In this document: positions 42,930-55,831 of the stretch, piece after piece | Layout of the letters: each line of letters begins with the position of its first letter | Numbering within the stretch: the stretch's first letter is position 1 | Assembly: GCA_913061095.1 (NCBI GenBank) | Contig: CAJXVM010000004.1 | Location: 1 to 64,000, forward strand | DNA length: 64,000 nt | From: an uncultured Ignavibacteria bacterium | GTDB taxonomy: Bacteria; Bacteroidota; Ignavibacteria; SZUA-365 | Direction of reading: 5' to 3' | The notes under the pieces: generated by a model | Seen by the model: only the letters and a program-made list of their open reading frames with translations | Database searches by the model: none | What the model was told of the DNA's origin: nothing | Position numbers and translations under genes: made by a program

Positions 42930-44969
42930 TCAGCGCTTCCGGATGACAGCCGCAGTGCGGGGATAATACTGCTGCAGCGTTTCCGTCGCGCCCGCCTGCA
43001 GCGGATGCTGCTGAAGCATTGCGGCGAATTCTTCCCGCCCGCTGAACCGCGTATGAATAATCCAGATCACGATCGCATGAACGATCCTCCGATGGCGGCC
43101 GCTGTATGCGGCCGCTTCGCGTAATGCGGTCAGGATGGTCTCATCGTCGGCATCCGAGAACAGCGCGAGACCGATCCGCGCGAAGGCCGCGTAGGTGGGG
43201 TGGGCCGGACTCTGCATCGCGACGCGCATGGCGCGCATGGACTGCTCGGTGTCACGTCCGAGCGTCTCCGATGACAGGGCATAGAGAATGTGTACCACCG
43301 GGTGCACGAATTGTCCCTTCCGCTCCGCCCGGCTGATCTGCATCTCCAGCACCACGTTTGCTTCCGAGGTGTTGCCGCGGCGCAGCATACTGAGCACGCG
43401 CGCGAGGAACTGTCCGAGGCTGTCCCCCTCGCGCTCCTCCTGCGGGATGCTGAGAACCACCTGCTCGCGGCTGGCGTGCTTCGTCTTCAGCGGTGCCAGC
43501 TGCATGGCCTGGCGGTAGGTCTCCATGATCTGATCCATCGGCAGTCCAATGGCTGGCGAGAGCGCGCGCAGCTGCTCGGCGATCTCCTCCTCGTTGAGGT
43601 CCTCCGTGGTGTTCTGCGCTTTCATGAGAATGGACTGATACTCCAGCTCCGGCTCGTGGCCGAGACGCGAATGCAGCATCAGCGCCGAGGCGATGGAGTT
43701 CTGCGCGTCCGGATCGCTGCCGCGCGAGAGTCGCAGTTCGTTCAGATAATGGGCCGTCATGCGATGCAGCGATTCTTTCTCCTCCGCCGTCAGCTCATTG
43801 TACAGTGCAGTGTGAATCGCGTGCTGTGTGAAGCGGTACACGGTGGATTCCTTCCCGTTGATCAGCCGGAACCCAACCGGCTCCACGATGCCGTGCTTCG
43901 TGCGGATGCGCCGCAGTCCGCGGATCAGATCCAGCGAGGCGCGCTGTGTCAGGTGCATCAGTTCGTGCAGGGAAAACTGGTAGCCGAGCACCGACGCGGT
44001 GAGCAGCAGTGTCAGGTCCGCCTCCTGCAGCGACTTCATCAGCCAGTTCGTGACCAGGCGGATTTCCGCGGGCAGCCCGCGGTAGGCCTCGAGATCGCCC
44101 GTCACCACGCCGCGATCGTCGAGCACATCCTCGACAAGCAGGTGCTGGATATAGGACTGCAGGAAAAACGGATTGCCGCCCGTCTTCTGCTCCAGCCACA
44201 GGAGCAGGTCGGGCTGGGCCGGACTCTTCGGGAAATACGAGCGGAAATATTCGCGGATCTGGTCGCTGCTGAAGGGCGGGAGCGTGATCTCCGTGGAAAA
44301 CGGCTCCTGCGAAAACTGCGTGTACAGCGTCAGCAAATCGGGGGATGCTTCCAGCTCGTCTCGGCGTGCGCTGAGTACAACGGTAATGCGGGAGTCGCGG
44401 TATTCCTCTTCAGAGAAGAAGCGGTGCAGAGCTTCGACCGTGGGAATATCGGTCCATTGCACGTCGTCGATAACGATCAGTACCGGCGATTCCTCGGCAA
44501 TCGTCTTGAGATCGCCAAGATACTCGCGCACGAAATTCGAGAAATCCACCTCGCGCTTTCCGCTCTTGAACTCGTTGAGATCGCGGCGGAGCTCCTTGAC
44601 GCCGTATGCCACGTCACCGACAATCGGGATGATCGCCAGCACCGTGAGGGAAATGTTCTTGATCAGATTGCGCCTGCGCCGCGTGTTGGCCTGGTTGGCG
44701 AGCAGATCCTCGAAAATGTCCTTCAACGGCTGATGCGGTTTGAGCATGTTGGTGGACTGATTCCCCAGCGGGGAAGAACACTGCGCGTACGAGACGAGAA
44801 TGTCGTCGCTTTCACGGTCGAGATAATTCCGGAGGAAATATGTCTTGCCCTGTCCGGTCTCCCCGAAAAACCACACAACCTGCAGTCCGCTCTCGCGGCT
44901 GCGCCGCAACACGGTGTCGAACTGCGTGCGGATATCGGGGCGGGGGATGTAAATCTGTTCGCTGTCCAC
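42930..44969 (-). CDS. STAND/AAA_16-like ATPase with helical C-terminal region
   Basis: The 679-residue product has an N-terminal ATPase of the AAA_16/STAND kind: Walker A FGETGQGKTYF near residue 36, Walker B VLIVIDDVQW near 175, a sensor segment ITVVLSARRDEL, and winged-helix-like NPFFLQSYIQHLL. A hydrophobic stretch at about 103-125 (ISLTVLAIIPIVGDVAYG) is unusual inside an ATPase. The C-terminal half is helical, consistent with tetratricopeptide-like repeats. There is no DNA-binding or cyclase domain. The GTG start at 44969 directly follows the stop of the membrane-protein gene, so the two are translationally coupled. It may be a signalling or defence ATPase, but that is inference. Confidence 0.78.
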   Translation of the reverse strand: MDSEQIYIPRPDIRTQFDTVLRRSRESGLQVVWFFGETGQGKTYFLRNYLDRESDDILVSYAQCSSPLGNQSTNMLKPHQPLKDIFEDLLANQANTRRRRNLIKNISLTVLAIIPIVGDVAYGVKELRRDLNEFKSGKREVDFSNFVREYLGDLKTIAEESPVLIVIDDVQWTDIPTVEALHRFFSEEEYRDSRITVVLSARRDELEASPDLLTLYTQFSQEPFSTEITLPPFSSDQIREYFRSYFPKSPAQPDLLLWLEQKTGGNPFFLQSYIQHLLVEDVLDDRGVVTGDLEAYRGLPAEIRLVTNWLMKSLQEADLTLLLTASVLGYQFSLHELMHLTQRASLDLIRGLRRIRTKHGIVEPVGFRLINGKESTVYRFTQHAIHTALYNELTAEEKESLHRMTAHYLNELRLSRGSDPDAQNSIASALMLHSRLGHEPELEYQSILMKAQNTTEDLNEEEIAEQLRALSPAIGLPMDQIMETYRQAMQLAPLKTKHASREQVVLSIPQEEREGDSLGQFLARVLSMLRRGNTSEANVVLEMQISRAERKGQFVHPVVHILYALSSETLGRDTEQSMRAMRVAMQSPAHPTYAAFARIGLALFSDADDETILTALREAAAYSGRHRRIVHAIVIWIIHTRFSGREEFAAMLQQHPLQAGATETLQQYYPRTAAVIRKR

Positions 44970-49680: not shown

Positions 49681-50112
49681 ACAATCAATATAGGGAATAT
49701 GTTGTTGGTGATTGGTTGTTGGTTTTTGGTTGCAATGGGCTGCCTGCCCGCCGTAGCGCAGCGGAGGCGGGTTGGCCGTTGGCTGCCGAAGGTCCGCCGC
49801 AGCGCAGCGGAGGCGGATTGGCCGTTGGCTTCTTCCCGACATTCACTCCTGCTCGTGCTACTGCTCCTGCACCACACGGGCGAGATGAATTTCGCCCCTC
49901 CATCCTGCCCGCTGCCTCCTGCGCCCGCAGGGCCACCATTTGTTCATTAAAAAAAGGATAAGTACGTTTGTATTTATTGACGATCCGTCTGCCCGAAATC
50001 CGTCTGTCACGGATCCCACCGGCAGGCGCGAGGGGCCCCGCCCGCGTCGACATCCACTGCGTGAGCAGCACAGCATCGAATTGGAAATTTCCCCAGTGTA
50101 TTGGAGGCTTTC
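49681..50112. other. Gene-free repetitive intergenic region
   Basis: This 432 bp stretch between the divergent M48 and flotillin genes holds no supported gene. It contains reiterated GGTTGTTGG words at about 49697-49735, a tandem pair of hairpin units at 49746-49830, and a short A-tract (TTAAAAAAAGG near 49945-49957). The promoters of both flanking genes should be here, but I cannot place them confidently. The open frames crossing it are products of the low-stop-codon repeats. Confidence 0.6.
49746..49830. repeat. Tandem pair of 39-bp hairpin units
   Basis: Units at 49746-49784 and 49792-49830 differ at three of 39 positions. Each carries inverted CCCGCC / GGCGGG (unit 1) or TCCGCC / GGCGGA (unit 2) around AGCGCAGCGGA. 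Two of the three differences are a compensating C-G to T-A pair in the stem. Confidence 0.85.
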
Positions 50113-51501
50113 ATGGTTACTTGGATCATCGTCATCGCTGTCGTCGTCCTCCTGGTCGCCGGCTTTATCTTCTGGATGACCAGACAGTATCGCAAGGCCG
50201 GTCCTAACGAGGTCCTGGTCATCTCCGGACGAAAAAGCTCGATTACGACCCCCGACGGAACGCAACAGGAGATCGGATATAAATTCCGCATCGGCGGCGG
50301 TTCCTTCGTCAATCCCTTCACCGAGCAGGCCGATACCCTGCCCATCGACGTCGTGACGGTGACGATCAAGACGCCGGAAGTGCTCTCCAAGGACGGCATT
50401 CCCATCCTCTCGGAATCCAGCGCCCAGGTGAAAATCGACACGAATGAATACGCGATTTTCCTGGCCACGCAGAACTTCATGGGCGGCGGCACTGAGGCCG
50501 TGCACGAGGTCGCGCAAACCGTGCTCGAGGGCAAGGTACGTGAGGCCATCGGCGGCATGACCATCTCCGAACTGTATCAGGACCGCGCCGAATTCGCCAA
50601 CCGCGTCTATAACGCCGTTGTGCGGGATCTCGGCAGCATGGGACTGGTGATGATCTCCTTCGCGCTCAAGGACATCAACGACACACAGGGATATCTCGAG
50701 GCGCTCTCCAAGCCGAAAATTGCCGCCGCAAAGCGCGACGCCGTCGTCAAGCAGGCTGAGTACGACCGTGACGCCGCCATTTTCGCCGCACAGGCGAACA
50801 AGGAGGCTGAGGTCGCCAAGCTCGCCGCCGCCGCCGAAGTCGCCGGCCGCAACTGGAAGAACGAAGAGCTCAAGGCAAAGTCGCAGATCGAGGTCAACAA
50901 GGTGCGCGCCCAGGCCGACAGCTCCTATGAGCTCGAGCGCTACCGCCTTGCACAGGACGTGAAGCAGGAGGAGTACAAGGTCAAGCTCATCGAAACGCAG
51001 GAGCAGGCGAAAGTCCAGGCCGAGGAAATCACGCGCAAGGAAAAGGAACTCGAGGCGACCATCATCAAGCCGGCCGAGGCCCGCAAGGTGCAGATCATCT
51101 CCGAGGCCGAAGCCGAGAGCGCCCGGCTGCTCAAGGAATTCGAGGCCAAGTCGCAGGCCCGCGCGAAGGAAAACGAAATGGAGGCCGACCGCATCAAGAT
51201 GCTCGGCCGGTCCGAAGCCGACGCGATGATCGAGAAGGCGAAGGCCTACGAGCAGTACAACCAGGCCGCCATGTACCAGATGATTCTCGATGTGCTGCCG
51301 GAACTCACAAAGAACGTCGCCGAACCGCTCTCGCGCATCGACAAGATCACGCTCATCGGCGGTGCGGACGGCAAGCTCGGCACCTCGCAGCTCACCGGAC
51401 AGATCGCAGATGTGCTCGCCAACGTGCCCGAGGTCGTCAAGTCGCTCACCGGCGTCGACCTCGCGAAGTTCCTCAAGGATAAGCTCGCGAGCGAAGACTG
51501 A
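50113..51501 (+). CDS. Flotillin/SPFH-domain protein
   Basis: The 462-residue product has an N-terminal membrane anchor (about 3-22, WIIVIAVVVLLVAGFIFW), the SPFH domain (about 30-190; AGPNEVLVISGRKS, NPFTEQADTLPID, VREAIGGMTISELYQDR) and a long Ala/Glu-rich coiled coil (about 200-400) typical of flotillins. Such proteins form membrane microdomain scaffolds. Start 50113 has TTGGAGG upstream; an in-frame ATG at 50101 is possible. It lies 103 bp before the aminotransferase fusion gene on the same strand. Confidence 0.93.
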   Translation: MVTWIIVIAVVVLLVAGFIFWMTRQYRKAGPNEVLVISGRKSSITTPDGTQQEIGYKFRIGGGSFVNPFTEQADTLPIDVVTVTIKTPEVLSKDGIPILSESSAQVKIDTNEYAIFLATQNFMGGGTEAVHEVAQTVLEGKVREAIGGMTISELYQDRAEFANRVYNAVVRDLGSMGLVMISFALKDINDTQGYLEALSKPKIAAAKRDAVVKQAEYDRDAAIFAAQANKEAEVAKLAAAAEVAGRNWKNEELKAKSQIEVNKVRAQADSSYELERYRLAQDVKQEEYKVKLIETQEQAKVQAEEITRKEKELEATIIKPAEARKVQIISEAEAESARLLKEFEAKSQARAKENEMEADRIKMLGRSEADAMIEKAKAYEQYNQAAMYQMILDVLPELTKNVAEPLSRIDKITLIGGADGKLGTSQLTGQIADVLANVPEVVKSLTGVDLAKFLKDKLASED

Positions 51502-51604: not shown

Positions 51605-53959
51605 GTGACGGCAGATAGAATTCATTTGATCGGTTCATCGCCGACGCTGAAGGTCGCCGCGAAGGCCAAGGCGCTCAAGGAGCAGGGGATCGATGTCATC
51701 GATCTCAGCGTGGGTGAGCCCGACTTCCCGACACCCGCCCATATCAAGGAGGCCGGTAAGCGGGCGATCGACGAGAATTTCACAAAGTACACCGCCAACG
51801 AGGGCATCCTCCCGCTGCGCAAGGCCATCGCGCGGCATCTCGAAGAGGAGTACCAGCTTTCCTACGACCCTGCATCCGAGATCATTGTCTCCAGCGGCGC
51901 GAAGCACTCCATCTACAACGCCATCATGGCTATCGTCAATGACGGCGACGAGGTGATCATTCCCGCTCCCTACTGGGTGTCATATCCAGAAATGGTCAAG
52001 CTGGGCAACGGGCGGCCCGTGATTATTCAAACGCGGGAAGAGGACGGCTTCCGGCTCACCCCCGAACAGCTGCGCGACACGGTCAACGCGAGCACAAAGG
52101 CGGTATTTCTCAACAATCCATCAAACCCCACCGGCAGCGGTTACACGCGCGAGGAACTCGAGGCGCTGGCCGACGTCATCATTGAAGAGGACATCATCTG
52201 CATTGCTGACGAGATCTACGGCAAGCTGATGTACGACAGCCTCAAGTTCACACGCTTCGCGTCGCTGGGTGAGGAAATCAGAAAGCGTACCATCACTGTC
52301 GACGGTGTGTCAAAAGCCTACTCGATGACCGGATGGCGCATCGGCTGGGCGGCCGCCTCGCCGGAAATTACCTCCGCGATGGCGAAAGTGCAGAGCCACG
52401 CAACGTCCAATGCCAGCTCGATCTCCCAGCGCGCGGCGCTGGAAGCGTACAAAGGACCCCAGTACGAAATCTCCAAGATGGCGGCGGAGTTCGAGAAACG
52501 TCGCAACTTCGTGGTGTACAAGCTGCAGTCCATGCCCGGCGTCTCCTGTCCGATGCCCCGCGGCGCGTTTTACGCATTCCCCAACATGTCGTCGTTCTAC
52601 AGGATGGAATACGACGGCGTGCCCATCCGCAACAGCTACGGCATGGCGTATTTCCTGCTCAAGCATGCGAACGTGGCCATCGTGCCCGGCGACGCCTTCG
52701 GCTCGGATGATTTCATCCGCATCAGCTACGCCAATTCGATGAGCAACCTGCTGGAGGGAATGGAACGCATCGCCGAAGCGCTCTCCAAGCTCAAGCCCGC
52801 GCCGAAGCGCAAGCTCATCAAGCTCGTCAACACCGAGACCGTGGTCAAGCATCAGGTGCCGGTGGACTGGGATGTGAAGGTCGGCATCCGCGACGCACTC
52901 GTGGCGGAGGCGGAGGCGCATCTCGGCTACAGCAATTACTTCGAGTGGAACGCGAATATCAACGGCATGATCGTGCAGCTGCGCACGAATGTCGGCCATC
53001 TCTACGATTTCTGGATGGAGAACTGGTATCCGGCGCAGCTGGAGGCCGACATCGAACCGCATGGTGTGATCTATGCGGTGGACGGCGTGCCCGGACGTGA
53101 ATCCCACGCGTTCTACAATTCTGAAACCAAGACCGGCGTGCTGTTCAACGCGGATCACTACGGTTCGCTGCGCTCACTGGCGCTCGGACTCACCACCGAC
53201 GTGGCCGAACGCCTGTTCGATATCCATGCCATCCGCGCGATGACCATGGACATCAACGGCGAAGGCATCATGTTCATCGGTCCCGAAGGCACGAAGAAAA
53301 CCGACCTGTTCTGGCGGCTCTTCCAGGAGGACGAGGCGGCGGCCATGCACAGTTACGACTATCTCTTTGTGCGCTACGGTGGCGGATACGCTGCGGCCGA
53401 CAATCCCGAGCGCAAGATATACATGCCCACGAAGGCCGTCTCCGCGCACGACGCGCTCGCGAAGCTCTTCGACAAGAGCAAATGCGAGAACGTGATCACG
53501 AAGGTGGAGGACTGCCGCAACGATGAGCACCGGCTGCACGAAAGCTGTCCGCTCAACAGCGGCGCGCCGTACAGCTACGACTGTGCGAAGAAGAGCCACG
53601 CGATGCTCGATCCCTACTGGCTGGGCGGCATGGCGCGGCACGTCAAGCGCATCGACATCCGTCACGTGTTCATCCTCCGCAACGACCCCGTTTCCTCCTC
53701 GATGCAGAAGCTCGATCTCGACGATGCGCTGAACATCGTGGAGATGGGATATCCCGCGGGCACGTCCGCCGGCGGCAAGCAGCACGCGTTTTACAATCCC
53801 CACCTCCTCGTGAAATCAGACGAGCGGATGGAGCTGCAGAAGCGCTTCTTCACGAAGCTGTTCCAGTCTGCCGACGTGTACCAGCTCAACGCGGGCACGG
53901 CGACGGTGACCGATATGACGCAGCAGATTTTGACACATGTCAGCGGCAACGGAAGGTAA
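51605..53959 (+). CDS. Aminotransferase class I fused to a PEPCK/HPrK-like P-loop domain
   Basis: Residues 1 to about 395 are a class I aminotransferase close to aspartate transaminases: IDLSVGEPDFPTP, SPTNPTG as NPSNPTGSGY, IADEIYGKLMY, PLP-lysine segment VDGVSKAYSMTGWRIG and DFIRISYANS. Residues about 420-784 are a second domain in the same frame. Its P-loop IMFIGPEGTKKTDLF (near 558-566) lacks the usual second Gly-Lys pattern of PEPCK (GTGKT), and RSKCEN-like KSKCENV follows. Phosphotransfer activity is therefore uncertain. GTG start 51605 has TGAGGT upstream. It ends 3 bp before the PEPCK-like gene, implying a joint role in aspartate-to-PEP flow. Confidence 0.82.
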   Translation: MTADRIHLIGSSPTLKVAAKAKALKEQGIDVIDLSVGEPDFPTPAHIKEAGKRAIDENFTKYTANEGILPLRKAIARHLEEEYQLSYDPASEIIVSSGAKHSIYNAIMAIVNDGDEVIIPAPYWVSYPEMVKLGNGRPVIIQTREEDGFRLTPEQLRDTVNASTKAVFLNNPSNPTGSGYTREELEALADVIIEEDIICIADEIYGKLMYDSLKFTRFASLGEEIRKRTITVDGVSKAYSMTGWRIGWAAASPEITSAMAKVQSHATSNASSISQRAALEAYKGPQYEISKMAAEFEKRRNFVVYKLQSMPGVSCPMPRGAFYAFPNMSSFYRMEYDGVPIRNSYGMAYFLLKHANVAIVPGDAFGSDDFIRISYANSMSNLLEGMERIAEALSKLKPAPKRKLIKLVNTETVVKHQVPVDWDVKVGIRDALVAEAEAHLGYSNYFEWNANINGMIVQLRTNVGHLYDFWMENWYPAQLEADIEPHGVIYAVDGVPGRESHAFYNSETKTGVLFNADHYGSLRSLALGLTTDVAERLFDIHAIRAMTMDINGEGIMFIGPEGTKKTDLFWRLFQEDEAAAMHSYDYLFVRYGGGYAAADNPERKIYMPTKAVSAHDALAKLFDKSKCENVITKVEDCRNDEHRLHESCPLNSGAPYSYDCAKKSHAMLDPYWLGGMARHVKRIDIRHVFILRNDPVSSSMQKLDLDDALNIVEMGYPAGTSAGGKQHAFYNPHLLVKSDERMELQKRFFTKLFQSADVYQLNAGTATVTDMTQQILTHVSGNGR

Positions 53960-53962
53960 CCC

Positions 53963-55831
53963 ATGGCGAAAGACATCTATAACAACGACGTATACAAAAG
54001 CTTTTACGAGCGGCTCGTGCCGCTGCTGAACAGTCCGAACATCAGGGAAGTCGATCTCAACTGGCTCGAGCCGCGCGTGAAGAAGTTTGCGCAGAAGACC
54101 GAGTACGGCTCCCATGTCTGGCGTTCGGTGCAGAGCTCGCGCCTCGCCGCCAAGACCGTGTACCTCGGATCAGAGCGCGTGCGCCTGCCGAAGCTTCTGC
54201 CCTACCAGGAAAAGGTGGTGAAGAATGCGCCCGATGAGCTGGAGAAGGTGCTCAAGTGGATGACCACGCTGCCCTTCATCAAGCTCACGCGGCAGATGGG
54301 CGACAATCCCGACTTCAATCCCACCTGCACGCTGTATCTCAGCGTGGGCGATTTCCGCAATGCGCGTCTTGCCTATCAGTGGGGCAACCTGCTCGATGAA
54401 CCCAGCGGACGTCCCGGACCGAACATCACGATGATTCACATTCCCGAGGAGCATCAGAGCCGCCAGCAGATCCTCACCATGCCCGAGTTCAACCTGAACA
54501 TCTGTCTCGGCAGCGACTATCTCGGGGAGAACAAGAAGGGATTCCTGCGCCAGGCCATGTGGCTGGCTGACGAGCATGGCATGCTCGGACTTCACGCGGG
54601 CAGCAAGGTCGTCGAGGCACGCGACGCGCAGTCGAACGAGCTGAAGCGCCACGGCGTCATTCTCTTCGGCATGACCGCGACGGGGAAATCCACCTGGAGC
54701 TGCCATCAGCTGGAGATGGATCCCAAGCGCGGCGAAATGACCTATGCCTCGCAGGACGACATCTGCTTCCTGCGTGACGACGGCGCCGCGTTCGGTTCGG
54801 AGCACAATTTCTATGTGAAGACCGACGTGCGGAAATCCGACCAGGAAGCGATGCATTATGCGCTGACGCACAAGAGCGCACTGCTCGAAAACATCATGGT
54901 GGATGCCGACGGCAAGGTGGATTTCCTGGACGAGAGCCTCTGCGGCAACGGCCGCGCCGTGGTGCGCATGGACAAACTCTTCATCGAGCGGGACGGCAAG
55001 CTCATCTCCATCGCTGCGGATTCGATCAATCTTCCGAGTCTCGACAAGAACGACGCGCTGTGGTTCGCCTTCATCACGCGGCGCAATACCATCATGCCGT
55101 TTGCACAGAAGCTCACGCCCGAGCAGGGCGTGCTGGCCTACCTGTTCGGGGAATCGACGCTCAGCTTCGCCGCCAATCCCGAGAAGGCGGGTGATTCCGT
55201 GCGCATTGTCGGCACCGACGACTTCATCATCGGCAGCCGCGGCCAGAAGGTCAATCGATTCCACGACATCATCATGAAGCTCGTCAACAAGTATCCCGGA
55301 CAGGTGAACTTCCGTCTGTACAACACCGGCGGCATGGGCGAGATCATCGAGGAAACCGAGGAAGGCGGCAAGATGACCAAACACATGCTGCGCAAAGCCG
55401 AACGCGTGCCGCTGGATCTGATGGCCGCCATTCAGCGCGGCGACCTGCGCGGCACCAACAAATGGGAGCGCGGCATCCTCGGTACCGAATCCATCGTCGA
55501 GGCCGACGGGCGACCGATGGAGGAATGGGACGTGCACAAGCTCTACAACAAGGAGCAGATCAACTATTACATCAGGGATCTGATCCAGGGCCGCCGCGCC
55601 TTCCTCGAGGAAATTTCCAAAGAGGGATTGCGTCCCGAAATCATCGCCTCCGCCGAGCGCAGCTTCCGTGCCATGGGCGACACCACGAAATCTGCGACCG
55701 CGGCCGCCCCCATGCAGCAGATGGCCATGCCCTCCGGCGGACCCGTCACCGCGACCGAGCCCCGCGTCGTCGTGCAGCGCGAGGAGCCCGTCCGTCGTCC
55801 CCGCAAGCCGGGCGTCTGGCGCTGGCGCTAA
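53963..55831 (+). CDS. Phosphoenolpyruvate carboxykinase (ATP)-like protein
   Basis: ATP-dependent PEPCK converts oxaloacetate and ATP to PEP and CO2. The 622-residue product is divergent from the usual 530: kinase motif VILFGMTATGKSTWS near residue 236 (usually GLSGTGKTTLS), DDICFLRDDG, a lysine segment FYVKTDVRKSDQEAM, ALLENIMVDADGKVDF, RRNTIMPFAQKLTPEQG, and NTGGMGEIIEE (usually NTGW). The overall order fits PEPCK, but several usual residues differ. A disordered basic tail (about 575-622) is extra. I leave out a gene symbol because of these differences. It follows the aminotransferase fusion by 3 bp. Confidence 0.78.
   Translation: MAKDIYNNDVYKSFYERLVPLLNSPNIREVDLNWLEPRVKKFAQKTEYGSHVWRSVQSSRLAAKTVYLGSERVRLPKLLPYQEKVVKNAPDELEKVLKWMTTLPFIKLTRQMGDNPDFNPTCTLYLSVGDFRNARLAYQWGNLLDEPSGRPGPNITMIHIPEEHQSRQQILTMPEFNLNICLGSDYLGENKKGFLRQAMWLADEHGMLGLHAGSKVVEARDAQSNELKRHGVILFGMTATGKSTWSCHQLEMDPKRGEMTYASQDDICFLRDDGAAFGSEHNFYVKTDVRKSDQEAMHYALTHKSALLENIMVDADGKVDFLDESLCGNGRAVVRMDKLFIERDGKLISIAADSINLPSLDKNDALWFAFITRRNTIMPFAQKLTPEQGVLAYLFGESTLSFAANPEKAGDSVRIVGTDDFIIGSRGQKVNRFHDIIMKLVNKYPGQVNFRLYNTGGMGEIIEETEEGGKMTKHMLRKAERVPLDLMAAIQRGDLRGTNKWERGILGTESIVEADGRPMEEWDVHKLYNKEQINYYIRDLIQGRRAFLEEISKEGLRPEIIASAERSFRAMGDTTKSATAAAPMQQMAMPSGGPVTATEPRVVVQREEPVRRPRKPGVWRWR

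Follow-up and report, generated by a model that had tools for sequence, protein, structure and literature searches.

A PEPCK-fold domain with a degenerate active site fused to aspartate aminotransferase in Ignavibacteria and other bacteria

A fused pseudo-PEPCK domain

We analysed a 64,000-nucleotide stretch of contig CAJXVM010000004.1 from an uncultured Ignavibacteria bacterium (the window), in which one gene joins an aspartate aminotransferase domain (AAT) to a C-terminal domain of ~390 amino acids, here called DOM. Judging from its model, DOM has the entire fold of phosphoenolpyruvate carboxykinase (PEPCK), beyond a mere P-loop. Judging from its residues, it is a pseudo-PEPCK, because the oxaloacetate/Mn2+ site has been lost while Thr and Lys of the phosphate loop remain, as does the kinase-2 Asp. 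The fusion of AAT and DOM arose once. We tentatively regard DOM as a PEPCK-fold pseudoenzyme that most likely regulates the oxaloacetate–phosphoenolpyruvate (PEP) node as a module that senses a ligand. The features discussed are:

51605..53959, plus strand: AAT-DOM fusion gene, 784 aa, one uninterrupted frame; fusion kept in ~50 genomes
51605..52774, plus strand: AAT (Aminotran_1_2 E 4e-75; active-site residues intact)
52775..53956, plus strand: DOM, PEPCK-fold domain (AlphaFold2 model, Foldseek and VIA matches, residue map)
53279..53302, plus strand: degenerate P-loop GPEGTKKT, fusion residues 559-566 (translation and alignments)
53963..55831, plus strand: divergent ATP-PEPCK-type gene, 622 aa (PF01293 85.6 bits; residues conserved in the family)
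50101..51501, plus strand: flotillin/SPFH-domain gene that heads the conserved cluster (Band_7 6.7e-27, Flot 2.3e-7)

The fusion frame runs from a GTG start at 51605 to a stop codon at 53957-53959 with no interruption, and 3 bp separate this stop codon from the start of the PEPCK-type gene. As the same one-frame fusion recurs in ~50 assemblies, it is not a sequencing artefact. The flotillin gene, AAT, DOM and the PEPCK gene are similar in GC content and in GC content at third codon positions, and therefore no part shows any sign of being a recent foreign insert. The first-pass annotation of this DNA had described an aminotransferase and a second domain in a single frame, the P-loop GPEGTKKT in that domain and a divergent ATP-PEPCK starting 3 bp later, and each of these readings was confirmed.

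Fold and family of the fused domain

DOM of the window matched no Pfam or NCBIfam family, the HPr kinase family (PF07475) included. A single-sequence search of the PDB gave nothing usable (two chance matches at E 0.13), and profile and structure searches were required. With a profile built from 56 relatives, the best solved sequence matches were HPr kinases (E 2.5e-4). An archaeal relative, L076, ties DOM to both PF07475 and PF01293 (PEPCK_ATP), and the PF07475 cut-off of 33.3 was passed by the archaeal relatives L076 (34.5), L141 (36.0) and L151 (38.7). Comparison of a wider DOM profile with a PEPCK profile using hhalign gave 98.6% probability (E 6.7e-16, 258 columns), and a narrower pair of alignments gave 87%. 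The AlphaFold2 model of DOM (predicted local distance difference test score (pLDDT) 90.2, predicted template modelling score (pTM) 0.88) had ATP-PEPCKs as its top solved matches and GTP-PEPCKs next (Foldseek E 1e-16), and it aligned with the ATP-PEPCK 1j3b from Thermus over 344 residues at 3.0 Å (VIA Z 29.5). The PEPCK likeness that the first-pass annotation had read into the fused domain is thus borne out by the model and its structural matches to ATP-PEPCK. The outcome that would have spoken against it, a second domain without similarity to the PEPCK/HPr kinase fold, did not occur, as the PEPCK fold covers most of DOM.

DOM is therefore homologous to ATP-PEPCK (PF01293; E. coli PckA and Thermus 1j3b) and has the same fold, but it differs by the lost oxaloacetate/Mn2+ site, and identity in structural alignments is 14–17%. 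HPr kinase/phosphorylase (PF07475) belongs to the same superfamily; unlike it, DOM carries a larger PEPCK-type N-terminal part, and no HPr context was seen for DOM.

Degeneration of the active site

DOM was mapped onto the sequence of E. coli PckA, whose residue numbering is used throughout. D268 and D269 were assigned by the GDD motif, as the hhalign and MAFFT columns are off by one residue there. In the window, Y207 is replaced by His, K212 by Arg, K213 by Ser, H232 by Arg, D268 by Tyr and R333 by His, and the second P-loop glycine (G253) is Lys564 of the fusion. With His, Ser, Arg and His at Y207, K213, H232 and R333, DOM does not carry the residues sought as marks of an active PEPCK. It retains T252, K254, T255 and D269 (phosphate-loop T563 and K565, kinase-2 Asp D585). 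Across 48 fusions, K254 is present in 47 and T252 in 46, Thr or Ser occupies the T255 position in 44, and D269 is present in 43, with Glu in the remainder. Almost every bacterial fusion has lost the Mn2+ ligands K213 and H232, and most have lost Y207 and R333, which bind the substrate. Numerous invariant positions are scattered across the domain. The degenerate active site that had been suspected from the P-loop is therefore supported by the residue map well beyond that loop. The degeneration is graded: fusions from Zixibacteria and TA06 retain near-normal P-loops, those from Aminicenantes and the window's group have P-loops of the GPKGTKKT type, and standalone archaeal relatives have GTGKT-type loops, DD and Y207, K212, H232 and R333, with Ser or Pro at K213.

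These residues also bear on whether DOM could still be an enzyme, such as a kinase or phosphotransferase that takes phosphate from a different donor like pyrophosphate, in which case the extra P-loop lysine would be an adaptation. The strong conservation of the Walker Lys and Thr and the kinase-2 Asp would suit such an activity, as would the archaeal relatives with intact P-loops and four of the catalytic positions, and the HPr kinase structures found by the DOM profile. However, given the loss of the Mn2+ ligands from nearly all bacterial fusions and of the substrate-binding residues from most, we consider an enzymatic role improbable.

Archaeal relatives

DOM is most closely related to unnamed archaeal proteins that stand alone and have intact P-loops, and relatives occur in ~16% of the sampled genomes from two archaeal phyla. 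They include PEPCK/HPr kinase-like proteins of ~320 aa (L138-L155) and ~400 aa (L117-L135). Their neighbourhoods showed no shared partner, single cases aside. In one archaeon (L136, 5619-8330, minus strand), a DOM-like domain and a PEPCK of the type found next to the fusion share one 904-aa frame; the PEPCK half scores 436 bits against NF006821, above the cut-off, and the DOM-like half is without the oxaloacetate site. In another (L139, 4799-7508), a PEP carboxylase gene (TIGR02751) overlaps the beginning of an open frame that is DOM-like. DOM thus occurs with three oxaloacetate–PEP enzymes, namely AAT (bacteria, fused), PEPCK (L136, fused) and PEP carboxylase (L139, overlapping). In the Bathyarchaeota metagenome-assembled genome L076 (4105-6080), the start of the DOM-like gene is overlapped by a ureohydrolase-like gene (agmatinase family by eye).

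Aminotransferase and neighbouring PEPCK

AAT comprises the first 394 residues of the fusion and is a class I aminotransferase (PF00155, Aminotran_1_2, fusion residues 30-389, 253.7 bits). Its closest solved structure is the aspartate aminotransferase 1j32 (E 1e-100), and Lys237, Asp202, Tyr205, Asn174, Arg372, Arg245 and Lys100 of the pyridoxal phosphate site and active site are invariant in 48/48 fusions. By these residues, AAT is a catalytically complete aspartate aminotransferase, with the aspartate specificity predicted from the nearest solved relatives. Like the class I enzymes 1j32 and 1bjw, it is a catalytic domain of full length in which every active-site residue tested is present; unlike them, it bears DOM and scores under the NCBIfam equivalog cut-offs for aspartate transaminases. 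It is the sole close aspartate aminotransferase of its type in its own genome, where the next paralogue is 30% identical.

The product of the neighbouring gene scores above the PEPCK_ATP cut-off (85.6 bits, cut-off 26.5) and under those of NCBIfam (TIGR00224 (pckA), 44.4 of 590 bits; NF006821, 280.8 of 369). Judged by these scores, it is a divergent PEPCK branch, "ATP-PEPCK-type" being a family label rather than a nucleotide assignment. Y207, K212, K213, H232, K254, D268, D269 and R333 are present in 34/34 members of its family (QDD was read as D268-D269 by motif), so the proposed alignment with the ATP-PEPCK active site found the catalytic residues kept. Compared with E. coli PckA, similarity is local only and the P-loop is altered (S250 to Thr, G251 to Ala, T255 to Ser). 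In its own genome, which is rated 100% complete, no further ATP- or GTP-PEPCK was found. Among fusion genomes without a PEPCK of this type, ten have a canonical PEPCK in its place (GTP-PEPCK in eight, ATP-PEPCK in two), which supports the prediction that the neighbouring gene encodes a working PEPCK. No PEPCK was detected in a few fusion-bearing bacterial assemblies of unknown completeness and in the archaeal ones.

Single origin and gene linkage

The bacterial fusions, which come from several phyla, form one clade (support 99/88) beside archaeal proteins; within it, TA06 branches off first and Zixibacteria/KSB1 next. The root was placed at the midpoint, and the archaeal DOM-PEPCK fusion is a long branch of uncertain placement. 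Two sequences (L023 and L058) carry labels at odds with their position in this tree, and the short contig that carries an AAT-DOM fragment of bacterial type in a genome of an archaeal phylum (L116, 3-1274) is probably mis-binned. It had been asked whether relatives encode the domain as a separate, unlinked gene. This holds for the archaeal relatives alone, as all bacterial copies found are joined to the aminotransferase wherever the locus is complete. In one close relative of the same family (L167, 5813-9070, minus strand), DOM has been lost: the aminotransferase stops at about residue 397 and is followed by a gap and then by PEPCK. The PEPCK match in L167 contains one TGA.

In 37/52 bacterial loci with enough sequence, PEPCK lies directly downstream of the fusion and on its strand (the denominator becomes 55 if three archaeal loci are included). 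Of 61 relatives, 14 have both genes, 2 have a single one of them and 45 lack both; the corresponding Fisher p of 1e-11 overstates independence, because the presences nest in one part of the tree. A flotillin-like gene is directly upstream on the same strand in 41/42 loci with enough upstream DNA. This gene, which the first-pass annotation had not mentioned, is the most faithful neighbour of the fusion and is present also where PEPCK is absent.

Such linkage would be expected if DOM were a docking subunit that binds the adjacent catalytic PEPCK, so that oxaloacetate is handed over within an AAT-PEPCK complex. This is the main rival to a regulatory role, with which it is compatible, and it would also suit the consecutive reactions of AAT and PEPCK and the DOM-PEPCK fusion of L136. 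However, the ten genomes described above keep the fusion with a canonical PEPCK, and L167 keeps AAT and PEPCK without DOM. In a test for relaxed selection on DOM, the DOM/AAT distance ratio was only slightly higher where the adjacent PEPCK is missing (median 1.56 vs 1.40, overlapping ranges). We therefore view docking as possible but somewhat unlikely. The idea that the adjacent PEPCK needs DOM as an obligate subunit is weakened by the several genomes in which the fusion occurs with a canonical PEPCK, and an obligate partnership is so far not supported.

A probable regulatory role at the oxaloacetate–PEP node

We ranked the regulatory pseudoenzyme first because the phosphate-binding constellation is kept, the fusion survived the swap of PEPCK and three enzymes of the node accompany DOM. 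Retention of DOM when PEPCK was replaced fits an action on the attached AAT. A regulatory role had also been suggested for the fused domain in the first-pass annotation, and we consider it likely.

From the computed results, namely the fold, the lost residues, the one origin of the fusion and the linkage of the genes, we infer the following scheme. An ancestor of DOM, akin to the standalone archaeal PEPCK/HPr kinase-like proteins, would have been fused once to an aspartate aminotransferase. It would then have lost the oxaloacetate/Mn2+ residues but not the kinase-2 Asp or the Thr and Lys that bind phosphate. By binding a phosphorylated ligand such as a nucleotide or PEP, DOM may set the activity of the attached aminotransferase, and it may additionally contact the neighbouring PEPCK where this is present. 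AAT would make oxaloacetate from aspartate, PEPCK would convert oxaloacetate to PEP or run in the opposite direction, and the two would be co-expressed as a single gluconeogenic or anaplerotic step, with the flotillin perhaps keeping them at the membrane. There is a precedent at the same node, as described in a 2020 review (PMC8100219): the malic enzyme MaeB combines a catalytic domain with a C-terminal inactive phosphotransacetylase domain that carries allosteric control. MaeB is a works-like analogue whose protein families are unrelated to those of AAT-DOM, and regulation of AAT-DOM would follow by analogy.

Three observations weigh against a regulatory role. The AlphaFold2 monomer of the whole fusion (pLDDT 87) has a pTM of 0.53 and shows no fixed arrangement of the domains, and hence the monomer prediction gives DOM and AAT no defined contact. 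DOM is dispensable at least in L167, where AAT and PEPCK stand side by side without it. Finally, the swapped P-loop glycine may, judging by sequence, block nucleotide binding. The predicted monomer also lends no support to channelling, which had been put forward for the flow from aspartate to PEP.

The low inter-domain confidence and the loss of DOM in L167 would fit with genes that are merely co-regulated metabolic neighbours, DOM being a passive remnant that stabilises the aminotransferase. But DOM has been retained for as long as the fusion has existed, in several phyla and with invariant positions spread over the domain, and we consider a passive remnant very improbable. A more elaborate arrangement is a two-part PEPCK on a flotillin platform, consisting of the catalytic PEPCK and a pseudo-PEPCK that is tied to the substrate-making enzyme and related to the archaeal PEPCK/HPr kinase-like node proteins; this we think rather unlikely.

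PEPCK sits at the junction of the tricarboxylic acid cycle and gluconeogenesis. If the regulatory role is correct, a dead PEPCK copy carried by the enzyme that makes the substrate, and kept across phyla, would represent a new form of regulation or organisation of the PEPCK step. The analysis also reveals an unnamed, widespread archaeal branch of the PEPCK/HPr kinase superfamily, together with a divergent PEPCK for which annotation models give a poor placement. Our literature searches, which covered few subscription journals, found no report of the AAT-DOM fusion, and it is not mentioned in the searched passages of the above review of the node or of a survey from 2016 on metabolic gene fusions (PMC4921024).

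Elsewhere in the window, a 678-aa AAA_16/STAND-like ATPase is encoded at 42930-44966 on the minus strand.

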